Source: an uncultured Lachnospiraceae bacterium (GTDB lineage: Bacteria > Bacillota > Clostridia > Lachnospirales > Lachnospiraceae). From it: DNA of 44,443 bases. This document shows, one piece after another, positions 31,269 through 37,574 of this stretch. The stretch's first letter is position 1; each line of letters opens with the position of its first letter. Position numbers and translations under genes: made by a program. The notes below the pieces were generated by a model. That model made no database searches. It was given only the letters and a program-made list of their open reading frames with translations, and had not been told where the DNA came from. The stretch covers positions 1 to 44,443 of the forward strand of contig CAMKQB010000008.1 in NCBI GenBank assembly GCA_946414825.1, in the 5' to 3' direction.

Positions 31269-32678
31269 CTAAATGTTATCTGGGATATATATATCAAATT
31301 CCATTTCGTTTTCCTCGGAATTTGCTTTAACATATATATCCCCGTAAAGACATTGGGCTATCTTTTTTGCTTCGAAAAGACCTATTCCATTGCCGCCTAC
31401 CTTTTCAGCATTTGAACCACGCCAGAAGCTATTGAATATATATGGCAGCTCTTTCTCACTGAGAACATTTCCCTTATTCTTAATAACGAAATAGTATCCA
31501 TCCTCTTCTTTATTTAGATTAACGTTTATACCTTCACCATTTCCATACTTAATGGCATTTTCCATTATTTGAGAGAGAATCCTACAAATGCCACTCTTAT
31601 CGCTCTTAACCATCGCATTATGATTCATCTCGAAAGCAAAAGGAATACTCAGCACATTTAATCTATTGCTATATTCCTCTTCAAGAAATTCCACCAGCTC
31701 CTTCAGATAGAACGGTCTTATATCCGGTTCAAAATCCACAACAGTTCCAGAGGTTTTATCTATAAGCTCCTTCACTATTTCCGTAATATCATCTGCATTC
31801 TTACTAATCTTACCCGCTATCTCTGCGTCACTCTTGTTTATCTCTCCATTTTCCTGATAGAGACCCGTGCTTATCGCATCTGCATACAGCTTGATATTAG
31901 CAACCGGAGTTTTGATACCATGAGCAATAGTTGTAAGCATAGTCATCTGATCGCGGCTCAGCTCATCCACCTTCTTCTGCTTATTCTGAATATTATCGCT
32001 GAGCATATTGACACCCCAGATGAATCTTCCAAAAAGACGGTTCTTTGTTTCAGGGAGCTTCTCGGAAATCTCATTCTTTGAAAGCTTTTCAGGATAATCC
32101 GAAAGCTTTTCAAAAGGACGTAGCACAGTACTGCTGATGTAGATGCAGATTCCAAGGGCAATAATAAATGCCGCGGCCAAGGTTATATTCATCAGCTTTT
32201 GAAGATTTGAATATTCAGCATCCTTGTATTCAAAGACAATGAAGCCTACGATGGATTGCTCTCCTGTTTTTATATTTATAGGCCTTAATGCCCACACCTT
32301 ATCTGAAGTATTATCTTTATTGATCAGAGATACGCCAGTTTCACCCTCATTGCTTGAAATGTACAGAACGTTATCCGGAAGTGCCGCCTTGCCATATTCC
32401 TTTATAAAAGCATCGCGGTTCTCCTCCATATAAGTATCAAGATCCGACTGCATATTATTAAACTCAGGATCATTTTTTTCCTCATAAGGAAAAACCGCAC
32501 TCCTTGTATAAGGTACAAACAAGTACTCCATAGAGAATCCTTCTACAATACGATTCATCAGGATGTTATTTGTTTCCTCCTGCTTTTTTGCTAATGAATT
32601 AAAAACAAGATTTGCCACGAGGATAAGTAATGCAAAAAGAAGCACTACGGCAATATAAAGTTTAGCTAACTTTTTCAT
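31269..32678 (-). CDS. Sensor histidine kinase
   Basis: 469 aa. TM1 is at about residues 7-28 and TM2 at 161-183, with an extracellular sensor domain of about 130 residues between them. A linker leads to the DHp domain with the phospho-acceptor His253 in TIAHGIKTPVANIKL. ATPase motifs are the N-box ILSQIMENAIKYG, NKGNVLSEKELPYIFNSFWRG and GGNGIGLFEAKK. The start overlaps the response regulator by 4 nt. The signal is unknown; the neighbouring ABC/lipoprotein cluster suggests envelope stress or peptides. Confidence 0.93.
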   Translation of the reverse strand: MKKLAKLYIAVVLLFALLILVANLVFNSLAKKQEETNNILMNRIVEGFSMEYLFVPYTRSAVFPYEEKNDPEFNNMQSDLDTYMEENRDAFIKEYGKAALPDNVLYISSNEGETGVSLINKDNTSDKVWALRPINIKTGEQSIVGFIVFEYKDAEYSNLQKLMNITLAAAFIIALGICIYISSTVLRPFEKLSDYPEKLSKNEISEKLPETKNRLFGRFIWGVNMLSDNIQNKQKKVDELSRDQMTMLTTIAHGIKTPVANIKLYADAISTGLYQENGEINKSDAEIAGKISKNADDITEIVKELIDKTSGTVVDFEPDIRPFYLKELVEFLEEEYSNRLNVLSIPFAFEMNHNAMVKSDKSGICRILSQIMENAIKYGNGEGINVNLNKEEDGYYFVIKNKGNVLSEKELPYIFNSFWRGSNAEKVGGNGIGLFEAKKIAQCLYGDIYVKANSEENEMEFDIYIPDNI

Positions 32679-33361
32679 TCCTTAGTGCCTCCAAACTTAT
32701 ATCCTACTCTCCAGACGGTTTGTATAAGCATTGGATTCTTTGGATCCTCCTCCAGCTTTTCTCTGAGCCATCTTATATGCACATTAAGACTACCCTGTTC
32801 ACTGAAACAGTCAAAGCCCCAAACCTCGTTGAAGAGTTTCTCTTTTCTAATAACCTGTTCTGGATGTCTCATCATATACTCTAAAAGATCAAACTCTTTT
32901 CCAGTAATAGAGAGTTCTTTACCATCCTTATAAACCGTTCTTGTTGTAACATCCATAGTAATCTTGTCATAGGTCAGAAGCTGTCTATCCTCTGACATAT
33001 CGTAAGCGCGGCGCATAAGAGCCTTTATCTTAAAGCCAAGCACCTCAACAGAAAATGGTTTATCTATATAGTCATCCGCTCCCAGCTCAAGACCCAGTAT
33101 CTTACTCTGATCGTCAGTACGCGCACTCATCATAAGTACTGGAATTCTTTGATCACGTCTAATTTCCTGAAGAGCCTCGTATCCATCCATTCCCGGAAGC
33201 ATAACGTCAAGAAGCAGCAGCTTGAAAGCTGCTGTTTTTACAAGAGCCAATCCTTCTTCAGCATTCATCTTCCACTCCACGGAGTAGCCTTCACGACGTA
33301 GGAAGTCCTGGATTAATCCACCAAGCTCTTCGTTATCTTCAATCACAAGAATGTCTGTCAT
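32675..33361 (-). CDS. OmpR/PhoB-type response regulator
   Basis: 228 aa. The receiver has acidic E8/D9, phospho-acceptor Asp52 (LLLLDVMLPGMDG) and the K-containing YIDKPFSVEVL loop. A winged-helix DNA-binding domain follows (ELSITGKEFDLLEYMMRHPEQVIRKEKLF...). The start at 33361 has GGAG (33368-33371) 6 nt upstream; an ATG four codons earlier would include that site. It is coupled to the histidine kinase and separated from the upstream lipoprotein gene by the inverted-repeat element. Confidence 0.94.
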   Translation of the reverse strand: MTDILVIEDNEELGGLIQDFLRREGYSVEWKMNAEEGLALVKTAAFKLLLLDVMLPGMDGYEALQEIRRDQRIPVLMMSARTDDQSKILGLELGADDYIDKPFSVEVLGFKIKALMRRAYDMSEDRQLLTYDKITMDVTTRTVYKDGKELSITGKEFDLLEYMMRHPEQVIRKEKLFNEVWGFDCFSEQGSLNVHIRWLREKLEEDPKNPMLIQTVWRVGYKFGGTKE

Positions 33362-33448
33362 ATCCATCTCCACAATTGCTCTGCACAGATTCTTTACTAA
33401 TGCAAATATGATAACACTTTACACCTGTCTTTTGTAGTAAATTGTTGC

Positions 33449-33713
33449 TGGCCCCTCACTTATAACAATATGAGTCACAGTACATACTCCTAAAATGATA
33501 ACGAGATTTTTCCTAGATTTAAGGAGCAAGTTTCATTATTTGTAAGCAGCGAGCGCCGCTTGTCTGAGCAAAAATGCCTTCCTAAATCTTATGAAAGGCA
33601 TTTTTGCGAGTTATAGCAAGCTGCATTACAAACTGAAACTTGCGACTATAAATCTGAAAAATCTTAGTGTGTTTTAGAAGTATGTACTGTGATCATATAT
33701 AAGTGAGGGGCCA
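33449..33713. mobile_element. 265-bp near-palindromic element, MITE-like
   Basis: The two ends are perfect inverted repeats of 16 bp (TGGCCCCTCACTTATA, 33449-33464; 33698-33713). Further paired blocks follow inward: TCACAGTACATACT (33475-33488/33679-33692), AGATTTTTC (33504-33512/33656-33664), AGATTTA (33515-33521/33649-33655), GCAAGTTTCA (33526-33535/33634-33643), TTTGTAA (33539-33545/33626-33632) and GCAAAAATGCCTT (33568-33580/33595-33607), with a 14-nt loop. No reading frame is seen. It ends 2 bp from a stop codon. A TAGTAA 6-mer flanks it (33435-33440 and 33717-33722). Confidence 0.65.
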
Positions 33714-33715
33714 TT

Positions 33716-35110
33716 CTAGTAACTGCCAACCTCTAGGAATCTAGGAATATCTTCTGCACAGTCGCCCTTAGTAAAGGAAACATGGATCTTTCCTGTGGCG
33801 TAGTCGACGATTACGGTATGCACATTTCCACTGTTGTGTACGTTGGAAACGATGTACTCATCAACGACTTCCTTTGCCATAAGTCCCTTTGCATCCGCAA
33901 CGGAGAACTTGTCCTTCTCGCTCACCCATTGGTTATATTTTACAAAACGGGTTATATTGAACTCCTCTCCAGTGAACCTGTCCTGATTATCCTTTGTAGC
34001 GAATGTATTCACTATGCAGAGTGCATCTGGTGTATCCCACTCGAGTCCTTCCATGAGTTCTGAGTCTTTAGTTCTGAGAACTGACTTCGCCTTTCCGGTA
34101 GCTGCAACTTCTTTAGTTGCATTCTCACAGCAGAACGCATCCTTTACATCAGTGCATAGAAGATTATTACACCATGTAAAGTCTCCGCTTTCTCCTACTA
34201 AATATTCACCTGCTTCTTTAGCCGTTTCGAAATGTTCAAGAGCATATCTGATTTCAAAGGTGTAACACTTTTTACCTTTGTAAACGAATGGCAGTCCTTC
34301 TTTGGAACCTACATCAAGGATTGCAATCATAACGCCATCGTCATTCACAGCAGTTATTATATCGAGAATTCCGAGAAATCCGATACTTGTTATAGATCCG
34401 TCGCCCTTCTTCATATGAGTTACTGTATGAAGTTCCGTTATCTGGTTTTCACTTCCGGCACTCCATTCAAGATTTCTAATGGATATTCTCTTTCCGCTGA
34501 CGGTTTTTTCTCCTCCAAGAGAAAGTGCACTACAGGCTGTTGGTCTAAGAGCGTCAGGGATGATCTGCATGGTAAGTGCTTCTATATAGCTAAGCTTTCC
34601 GTCTTCTGCATAGCCCTCTTCGCCTTGAGATATAGTCTTGGCAAAGCTTGTAACTTCGTCCTTATATTCCTTAGGCAGTGAATCAACCATTGTTTCTATT
34701 CTTTCTTCAAGGGCTTCCTCATTTATCTTACGTCCATTAAATGCATTCCTTATATTCTCATGAAGATATGGCTCAAAGTTATTCACAAATCCAGGAACAG
34801 CCTCTATGATGGTCTCCGCATAAGCTTTTCCTACTTCGGTTGGTTTACCCTTTTCATAATCCAAAGTAACATCATAATAGGTTGGATACTTCTCGATAAC
34901 GCACAGTCCATCTGCAGAAGAAAAGGTTTCTATAACCTCTTCTATCTCGCTGTCATCTGTGTAAGTCACCTCTTCTTCCACATTCAGAGAGCCAACCTTT
35001 TTCATTCCTTCCGACTGAACTTCCGATACACTATTGCCGCATCCACAGATAGAGAGCAGCATTCCAAGCGTTAAAGAACAGCTTATTATTTTTTTATATA
35101 TTTTATTCAT
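33716..35110 (-). CDS. Secreted lipoprotein of the Ntn-hydrolase (C45/choloylglycine hydrolase-like) type
   Basis: 464 aa. The N-terminal signal carries a lipoprotein-type Cys (LLSICGCG, Cys22 or Cys24). After a helical region of about 165 residues comes an Ntn-hydrolase domain starting at Cys193 (PTACSALSLGG), the candidate nucleophile freed by self-cleavage. Supporting motifs are ISIRNLEW, GFLGILDIITAVNDDGVMIAILDVG and DFTWCNNLLCTD. Such linear-amide hydrolases act on amide bonds of beta-lactams, bile acids or fatty amides; the substrate here is unknown. The start overlaps the permease stop by 8 nt. Its 3' end abuts the 265-bp element. Confidence 0.7.
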   Translation of the reverse strand: MNKIYKKIISCSLTLGMLLSICGCGNSVSEVQSEGMKKVGSLNVEEEVTYTDDSEIEEVIETFSSADGLCVIEKYPTYYDVTLDYEKGKPTEVGKAYAETIIEAVPGFVNNFEPYLHENIRNAFNGRKINEEALEERIETMVDSLPKEYKDEVTSFAKTISQGEEGYAEDGKLSYIEALTMQIIPDALRPTACSALSLGGEKTVSGKRISIRNLEWSAGSENQITELHTVTHMKKGDGSITSIGFLGILDIITAVNDDGVMIAILDVGSKEGLPFVYKGKKCYTFEIRYALEHFETAKEAGEYLVGESGDFTWCNNLLCTDVKDAFCCENATKEVAATGKAKSVLRTKDSELMEGLEWDTPDALCIVNTFATKDNQDRFTGEEFNITRFVKYNQWVSEKDKFSVADAKGLMAKEVVDEYIVSNVHNSGNVHTVIVDYATGKIHVSFTKGDCAEDIPRFLEVGSY

Positions 35111-37574
35111 CTCTGACTCTCCATATCTTTATACTATCAATAGGTTTAAAGGCAAGTACCAAGCTTATTGAAACAAGCATTAGTAGCCCTAGAGGTATAA
35201 CTACCATAAACAGTGCAGTTGGAGATGCAAGTGTAAATTTTCCAACTCCAAGCACTACCATTCCCACTTGGTTAAAGACCGCTTTAGATACTGTGAAGGA
35301 CAGAATAAAACCGAGTATTATCGCACATACGACCAGAATAAGCATTCTGAGATAGTGCCATCCTCTTATGCTGCTCCTATCAACACCAATACTCTTCAGC
35401 ATTGCTATATCAGCTGTTTCTTCCTCAATAAATATCTGCTGATACAGGAAGGTCATTGCAAATATAGTTACTGACATGATAATTGCTATTACCGCAAAGA
35501 GCATATCAAATATTGTTCCATACTCTCTACCAAGATCAAAGTCCAGAACCTGATCAAAGTCCCATATCATTATGTCTTTATTGACACTTCGCATTTTCTC
35601 AATTGTTGCATCATACTCATCGTCAGGTACATCTAAGCTTTCGTTGAAAAGATCCCAGTCATCTATAAAATAGTTTTCATCCGGTTCAGCCATGATAAAT
35701 TCTGGTATTCCACCATTTAGCATTGATTCATAGTAAGCCGTTACAATAAAATCCTTCTTTACATATTTAAGAGAAAAACCGTCATCCTGATATACTCTAT
35801 AAACCAGCGTAACTGTATTACCTAGATTTAAATCCCTTGATTCCTTTAAGCTATGGGATACAGCTACTTCATTTTTCAGCGTAGGAGCCTTGCCACCTTT
35901 TACAAATCTAAGTCTCTCCAGTTCCACATCTTCATTATCAAAATAAAGCTTAATACCAACATCTTCACCTGGCGCTTTCCATGTCGCTTCCTGTGAATCA
36001 ATAATCTGAATATTCAGTGGAACTCCATTCTCGTTATAGTATTTTTCATAATATTCAAATACATTTCTATAACTGCCTTCTTGAGCCACAAGTTTATCTC
36101 TAAGATTATCTTCAGGTCTTATAAACACTTCTCTATCGACGATCATCCAATAATTTTTTCTGAAATCATCACTCACTACGGTTTCCTTCAGCTGGACTAC
36201 TAAGAAAAGCATTGTAACACCTAGAGTGAAGCTTACGATTAGATAAATATATCTTTTAAGTCTTCCTATGATATCCTGAACCGCAAGGAAAAACGGAACT
36301 GAGGAATGTCTGCTCTTATGAAGAAATACTCCCGGAAGCTTCTTAAATCTTTCACCTCTGTTTTCACCATGAATTGTATCCATTACAGATATTTTTCTCA
36401 TTCTTCTTAGCGCAAAGAACGAAAATAATATCATGAGTAAAGTGAATAAAAAGCTCATTAGAATTCCAAGAACAATAAAGACTCCTGTCCTTGGTGTCAG
36501 GGTATTAACTATAAAATGATTAATCATAAATCGAGAGAGTGGTATTCCAAATGCTATTCCCAGAACGCCGCTTAACATGGCGAATGCAATATACTTAACT
36601 ATGAATAGCGATTTATATGCCAGGCTGTCCACACCTATCGCCTTCATGGTTCCAATTTCTTTTTCTTCTCTCTTTATAGTTGCATGAAGACTAAAACGTA
36701 TACTCATAAATATAAGAATAATGAGTGATACTCCCATTATGACCATAAAAATACTGATGATAAAAGTTATCATGGCAGCATTAGAATTCATATTACTTTT
36801 TCCAGTTGTTATATGATCAATATGTCCGTCCAACTTATTGGTATCATTTAGTTTGTTTATATCTACCATAAGGTCATAACCCCATCTCTGGAGTTCAGAC
36901 ATAGATGAAAACCCTTTTTTAAGTCTAACCTCATATAGATCGCTTAGACTATTAAATTCTTTCACAAGTTCCGTATAGTCCTCGTCGGAAAAAACAATCT
37001 TATGGAAAAAGTTTGAACTTGGATCCTTATAGATATGAGACACTGTAAACTCGTATGTATTTCCCATATCAGTGGTGATTCTTATCTTACTTCCAATTTT
37101 CGTTTTTGCATTATTTGCAAGATACTGTGGAATCGCCACGCACCCATTTTCTACCTTAAGCACTTCATCATTCATGTCAAAAGGGATATTCTGATCATTG
37201 CTCACTGTAGTTAAATAAGCTGAGTCCTCATATAGATTAGTGACTGTTCTTCTGTCTACTCCTTCAAAATCAAGCCGTTCTGTTAATATTACTGGGCGCT
37301 CTGAAATCTTAACTTCGCCTATTTCCGGATATTTTTTCAGCGTCCTATTTATTATGGCTCTCTGACCTTCTTTATCGGAGATACTTGTATTAACTGTAAA
37401 CATGATGTCTGCTGTTTTACACCTCTCGTAGGTTTCTTCTGTGCCTATAAAGAAGGTGTAAATGAAACCCGCACTCGTAACAAGGAGTGTCGCTGCTATG
37501 ATCATGAATATACATAGCACTATATTTAAACCGACCTTATCGCGGAGGTCTTTTTTTAACATTCGTAGGTACAT
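35103..37574 (-). CDS. FtsX-family ABC permease (large, two FtsX domains)
   Basis: An 823-aa permease. TM1 (about 15-37) is followed by an extracellular MacB-like domain (about 40-260) and a first FtsX triad (about 265-390). A helix near 435-455, a second extracellular domain, and a second triad near 690-815 complete it. The motif TMKAIGVDSLAYKSLFIVKY and its counterpart MLKSIGVDRSSIRGWHYLR are the FtsX cytoplasmic couplers. It works with the ATPase just upstream. Proteins of this class export peptides or sense antimicrobial peptides; the neighbouring two-component system supports the latter, as an inference. Confidence 0.9.
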   Translation of the reverse strand: MYLRMLKKDLRDKVGLNIVLCIFMIIAATLLVTSAGFIYTFFIGTEETYERCKTADIMFTVNTSISDKEGQRAIINRTLKKYPEIGEVKISERPVILTERLDFEGVDRRTVTNLYEDSAYLTTVSNDQNIPFDMNDEVLKVENGCVAIPQYLANNAKTKIGSKIRITTDMGNTYEFTVSHIYKDPSSNFFHKIVFSDEDYTELVKEFNSLSDLYEVRLKKGFSSMSELQRWGYDLMVDINKLNDTNKLDGHIDHITTGKSNMNSNAAMITFIISIFMVIMGVSLIILIFMSIRFSLHATIKREEKEIGTMKAIGVDSLAYKSLFIVKYIAFAMLSGVLGIAFGIPLSRFMINHFIVNTLTPRTGVFIVLGILMSFLFTLLMILFSFFALRRMRKISVMDTIHGENRGERFKKLPGVFLHKSRHSSVPFFLAVQDIIGRLKRYIYLIVSFTLGVTMLFLVVQLKETVVSDDFRKNYWMIVDREVFIRPEDNLRDKLVAQEGSYRNVFEYYEKYYNENGVPLNIQIIDSQEATWKAPGEDVGIKLYFDNEDVELERLRFVKGGKAPTLKNEVAVSHSLKESRDLNLGNTVTLVYRVYQDDGFSLKYVKKDFIVTAYYESMLNGGIPEFIMAEPDENYFIDDWDLFNESLDVPDDEYDATIEKMRSVNKDIMIWDFDQVLDFDLGREYGTIFDMLFAVIAIIMSVTIFAMTFLYQQIFIEEETADIAMLKSIGVDRSSIRGWHYLRMLILVVCAIILGFILSFTVSKAVFNQVGMVVLGVGKFTLASPTALFMVVIPLGLLMLVSISLVLAFKPIDSIKIWRVRDE

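Follow-up and report, generated by a model that had tools for sequence, protein, structure and literature searches.

The near-palindrome at positions 33449 to 33713 of the window, by which we mean the whole analysed stretch of 44,443 nt from an uncultured Lachnospiraceae bacterium, is one copy of a dispersed family of short DNA palindromes without coding capacity in this rumen bacterium. We favour, with moderate confidence, the reading that these palindromes are mobile and that template switching copies one arm onto the other and inverts the segment between them. This reading is based on copies that lie inverted in place between related genomes, and on arms that stay paired while their sequence changes.

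The window hairpin and its parts

The initial annotation had described a near-palindromic hairpin of 265 bp with a 14-nt loop, and both the paired arms (Table 1) and the folding confirm that it is real and far beyond chance. As DNA, the segment 33440-33722 folds with -77 kcal/mol compared to a mean of -24.9 for shuffled sequences (z = -14.1), and the minus-strand RNA of the element reaches -129.8 compared to -55.5 (z = -17.1); in both cases none of 200 shuffles was as good. The absence of coding capacity also held, as no ORF of at least 100 amino acids overlaps the core, and the element does lie between a lipoprotein gene and a response regulator gene. The minus-strand gene run at this locus also holds a histidine kinase, an FtsX-type permease and an ABC ATPase. 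Scans of positions 32600-35200 revealed no terminator, and no promoter inside the element.

The annotation's perfect 16-bp terminal inverted repeats are present in the window copy, but its arms are specific to the locus and not shared across the family (see below). The 6-mer TAGTAA does occur on both sides; however, both occurrences lie some bases beyond the hairpin. This offset, the overlap of one 6-mer with a stop codon and the TAGCAA found in genome G018 speak against a target-site duplication.

Table 1 Features of the window hairpin and its surroundings. Positions refer to the window; an empty strand cell means that no direction is assigned.
Feature	Position	Strand	Remarks
Whole hairpin element	33449..33713		inverted-repeat pairs, DNA and RNA folding
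Left outer arm	33449..33491		locus-private sequence, pairs with right arm
Right outer arm	33676..33713		
Outer arm pair	33449..33464 / 33698..33713		16 nt, perfect
Second arm pair	33475..33495 / 33672..33692		21 nt, 95%
Inner arm pair	33568..33580 / 33595..33607		13 nt, perfect; encloses the 14-nt loop
Family-shared core	33492..33675	+	direction per core alignment; inverted at the window site in G009, G040 and G041
Basal internal loop, left side	33497..33503	+	GATAACG here; GATAGC in distant subfamilies; by eye
Basal internal loop, right side	33663..33669	+	CTTAGTG here; CTAGCGTG type in distant subfamilies; by eye
Apical internal loop, left side	33549..33555	+	GCGAGCG; by eye
Apical internal loop, right side	33607..33621	+	CGAGTTATAGCAAGC; by eye
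Terminal hairpin	33568..33607		module differing or absent in other copies
Left TAGTAA	33435..33440		TAGCAA in G018
Right TAGTAA	33717..33722		overlaps stop codon of lipoprotein gene
Lipoprotein gene	33716..35110	-	no Pfam match
Response regulator gene	32675..33373	-	Trans_reg_C domain

Distant subfamilies keep one plan in which, as judged by eye, the internal loops are conserved and the stems vary. The two sides of the basal loop face each other as GATAGC and CTAGCGTG, or as GATAACG and CTTAGTG in the subfamily of the window, and adjoin GATTTTC / GAAAATC; in the apical loop GCGAGCG.. stands opposite CGAGTT..AGC..GAGC (all by eye). Tandem G.A pairs are conceivable where GGAGCGAG stands opposite CGAGCGAC; the same positions are Watson-Crick paired in copies L008 and L034. 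The tip is modular and consists of a long hairpin between A and T runs, of a short GCGAAGC-type hairpin, or is absent. A two-way terminator was rejected as the conserved function, as the tip varies among copies, its T-run is interrupted in G009 and G040 and no terminator was predicted.

A dispersed family with locus-private arms

Further copies, which the initial annotation had proposed to look for, were found in the host genome and in its relatives. When the own genome (2.05 Mb, 92% complete) was first searched at the DNA level, matches at other places mostly covered the inner 185 bp only, because the loci are unlike one another over the outermost 25-45 bp at either end. A covariance model of this core matched 13 of 61 genomes of the genus. 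Not counting opposite-strand matches at the same place, it revealed ten places in the own genome, seven in G018, nine in G040, eight in G030 and one to four in each of nine others, about 53 in total. In a less sensitive search with this model of 299 genomes drawn from the bacterial family, only the own genome was matched; as this search, which scored eight candidates per genome, recovered eight of the ten own copies, restriction of the hairpins to the genus is likely from these sequence matches rather than proven. Plasmids and phages gave no match to the family, nor did viral contigs for one exact pattern, and a literature search that covered few subscription journals returned nothing on it.

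Within the ten own copies the two arms are on average 0.90 identical to each other (lowest value 0.77), whereas left arms of different loci share an identity of 0.58 (highest value 0.77), compared to 0.50 for shuffled arms. The terminal inverted repeats of the initial annotation therefore belong to the locus and not to the family.

Dispersal, amplified copies in G030 and element-free gaps suggest from sequence comparison that the family is mobile. The eight G030 copies are 94.6-98.3% identical, arms included, and have common ends. One of them (L108) carries a paired change at its outermost ends, which read GTATGC and GCATAC instead of the GTATAC present in other G030 copies. Most G030 copies have a neighbour beside the hairpin, another large structured element that is unrelated to it and carries CCGCGG close to one of its ends (left flanks of L105-L109). 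The comparison with relatives lacking the element, also proposed in the annotation, revealed empty orthologous gaps at recG in G041, G012, G013, G027 and G059, at the C63 locus in G041 and between atpB and atpD in G041 and G027; these gaps could be losses. In G027 (L148) nothing of the element is left between two TACTA repeats at the window site, and the lipoprotein reading frame, read from the sequence, is five codons longer. In G012 and G013 a single arm, which resembles the right outer arm, is the sole remnant at this site. This relic raised the possibility that arms are copied from the target, which appears less likely: it keeps the inner arm end and apparently the last core bases, as would be expected if the core and the second arm had been deleted.

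The search for a transposase with matching ends covered the Y1 family and found none. The covariance model had no match at 30 Y1-transposase loci out of 47 matches listed, ten of which were included in a motif check, and no Y1_Tnp match was obtained in the own genome, which is 92% complete. Nor did the ends of the G030 copies lead to an autonomous element: 14 of 24 end-pattern matches had no or one mismatch and all of these lie at hairpin copies, while those with two mismatches lie at hairpin copies in two cases and elsewhere in eight. No target-site duplication was seen by eye, and the element ends are not sharply defined.

Bacterial MITEs such as Correia and RUP are short, non-coding, dispersed elements with inverted repeats that lie beside genes. 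The hairpin resembles them in all of these respects but differs in its locus-private arms. The MITE-like, non-autonomous character proposed in the initial annotation is therefore retained for a short element without ORF that is dispersed over ten places, amplified in G030 and absent at some orthologous sites; strict membership is not, because neither a transposase or parent transposon (Y1 family searched), nor a target duplication, nor a family-wide terminal repeat was found. REP and REPIN sequences are linked to a RAYT (Y1) transposase and carry a GTAG or CGTC tag. The hairpins share with these and with BIMEs that they are extragenic palindromes near gene ends, apparently mobile and non-autonomous. 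Unlike them, the element measures 265 bp compared to the 20-40 bp given for REP palindromes in PMC3733652, and has about ten copies. With no copy at the 30 Y1/RAYT loci and no Y1_Tnp in the own genome, a REP/RAYT link was rejected.

Inversion in place and paired changes

At ten loci at least one pair of genomes matched on both sides of the element, namely W (the window site), R (recG), Y (tgt-yajC), N, F (fabG-fabF), P (parA), C20, C21, C63 (oadB-oadA) and atpB-atpD. At six of them (W, R, Y, N, C20 and C63) the element is inverted between genomes with both flanks matched; at P, G027 carries it in reverse orientation, with a match on one flank. No inversion was detected at F, C21 and atpB among the genomes compared, although C21 in G018 has a second copy in opposite direction 70 bp away and atpB holds two copies from different subfamilies. 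L125 (C16 of G018) holds two family copies in opposite directions, 70 bp apart. Between G018 and G040, whose flanks are 92-97% identical, three of six shared loci are inverted (W, R and N).

R represents the cleanest inversion, with flanks alike on both sides. At W the element points one way in G000 and G018 and the other way in G009, G040 and G041. Its unequal arm bulges moved along with the core, and the flank on the response regulator side stayed in place in G009 and G040. On the lipoprotein side, these two genomes have about 18 nt more flank than G000, and the W sites therefore differ by more than inversion. The arms at N, Y, C20 and C63 differ strongly between genomes (0.35-0.73), so that replacement of the element is possible there.

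The core alignment comprised 22 of the roughly 53 copies (21 distinct), all of them related and one (L009) misaligned in its middle. Of its 921 cells 99.3% are paired, and 20 of 47 pairs show two-sided changes, with 86 two-sided compared to 10 one-sided cells. Among 500 shuffles none reached the pairing and change values and one reached the number of pair types; sliding the structure along the alignment lowered pairing to 34-44%. A single copy with uncompensated arms, which according to the annotation would have spoken against mobility and structure, was not what we found. Summed over 26 orthologue pairs, which share sequences, 212 one-sided stand against 106 two-sided Watson-Crick changes, and close pairs changed mainly on one side. 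Concerted change is therefore strong only at some loci. The two-sided changes occur in bursts, with 13 at N and at C21 between G018 and G040, and 7 and 8 at Y.

G-U pairs are tolerated on one strand in structured RNA families. We aligned the left half of each of 51 related elements to its own right half with no bonus for G-U. Besides 4889 Watson-Crick pairs this gave 27 G.T, 16 A.C and 78 other isolated mismatches, and 119 G.T, 71 A.C and 488 others when all mismatches were counted. G.T exceeded A.C mildly in every count (55 versus 33 in the orthologue pairs). G-U is thus without clear preference, with a mild lean to one strand.

Template switching as the probable mechanism, and its alternatives

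According to the explanation that we favour, the family would be a non-autonomous mobile element whose copies spread with the help of some enzyme, and landed copies would persist, often directly behind a stop codon. The replicating polymerase would switch template between the two arms and thereby copy one arm onto the other, which would produce paired changes and private arms, and an occasional switch would invert the segment between them. The turning in place and the joint rewriting of the arms would then probably stem from copying errors in DNA replication. Homogenised arms and inverted spacers are reported for template switching between inverted repeats in PMC8604942 and PMC8794818, where the inverted spacers are a few bases long. 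As both are published outcomes of this process, we regard template switching as the most likely engine. Concerted arm change is seen here, although close pairs changed mainly on one side, and so is inversion of the spacer with unchanged flanks, apart from the flank length at W. The two papers deal with scattered short repeats or RNA stems, in contrast to a dispersed bacterial family in which about 200 bp are inverted at six of ten loci. A cellular function is not needed to explain the pattern. Our confidence is kept at a moderate level by the one-sided excess, the mild G.T excess, the three loci without inversion, the length of the inverted segment compared to the few-base spacers, the missing transposase, possible losses and the flank length at W.

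The main rival, which we consider unlikely although it deserves attention, is a dedicated recombinase or transposase that would bind the folded element at its conserved internal loops and, at preferred sites, invert it, cut it out or put another in its place. The constancy of these loops across subfamilies with varying stems would fit such an enzyme, as would the reuse of the same gaps by different subfamilies (atpB by L007 and L105; C21 by L108, L113 and L124) and the inversions with strongly altered arms at N, Y, C20 and C63, which replacement would give; however, no partner emerged from the Y1-family search described above. Invertible DNA switches combine a cognate recombinase with a switched promoter. 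Here, too, a segment between inverted repeats occurs in both orientations, compared between genomes, but the element has no promoter-like site inside. It may be speculated, somewhat more doubtfully still, that these are self-rewriting DNA hairpins: the conserved internal loops of an extruded hairpin would attract a dedicated enzyme, which would turn the element around and copy one arm onto the other, shape would be kept while sequence turns over, and the gaps behind stop codons would serve as slots in which species exchange hairpin families.

Selection on the mRNA appears less probable again. A hairpin active in both directions, for example as a shield for the 3' end of the upstream transcript, would keep its pairing while its arms drift, and use of both strands would likewise disfavour G-U. 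In seven of the ten own copies the stop codon of the nearest ORF (mechanically called) lies 33-46 nt from the core, so that the arm nearly reaches the gene end, and other large hairpins occupy the same gaps in other species. Of ten genomes, the atpB-atpD gap holds this family in one, a different structured element in four and neither in five (two with a short stem); of eleven, the oadB-oadA gap holds this family in three, a truncated relic in one, other large hairpins in four and none in three. Such gaps may be places where an element can land without harm, or sites at which a hairpin of any kind would be of use. Several relatives thus have no large hairpin in the gap, the window hairpin matched Rfam only below gathering scores, and selection leaves the in-place inversion unexplained. 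Among the other occupants of these gaps is the CCGCGG-bearing element (L044-L046 and L048, where it had no Rfam match, and L245), and in the oadB-oadA gap of G012 and G013 (L247, L248) a hairpin family of the form TTTGAAGTGC..GCACTTCAAA, two of them in tandem in G012. The annotation's alternative, an RNA hairpin that sets relative expression of the two operon halves, finds no support where the RNA would act from one strand: relatives carry the element in either orientation at the same place, elsewhere the gap has no hairpin or a different one, and there is no clear preference for G-U. A side effect on the mRNA that does not depend on orientation is possible.

Opposite orientations produced by mis-joined arms in short-read MAGs are highly improbable even though most genomes are fragmented and several copies lie at contig ends, as the perfectly matched parts of the arms span few bases (16 nt in the window, less than a usual sequencing read), different assemblies concur at W (G009, G040 and G041 versus G000 and G018) and arm bulges travel with the core.

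Paired stem changes are usually read as the mark of a functional RNA. The dispersed family described here combines strong pairing with in-place inversion and has no clear G-U preference; it would be a naturally occurring example of palindromes that are maintained as DNA, and could mislead RNA discovery. With many loci of known divergence, the family could allow the rate to be measured at which replication flips or rewrites long bacterial hairpins. That such hairpins turn around and rewrite their arms, yet keep their shape, was unexpected.
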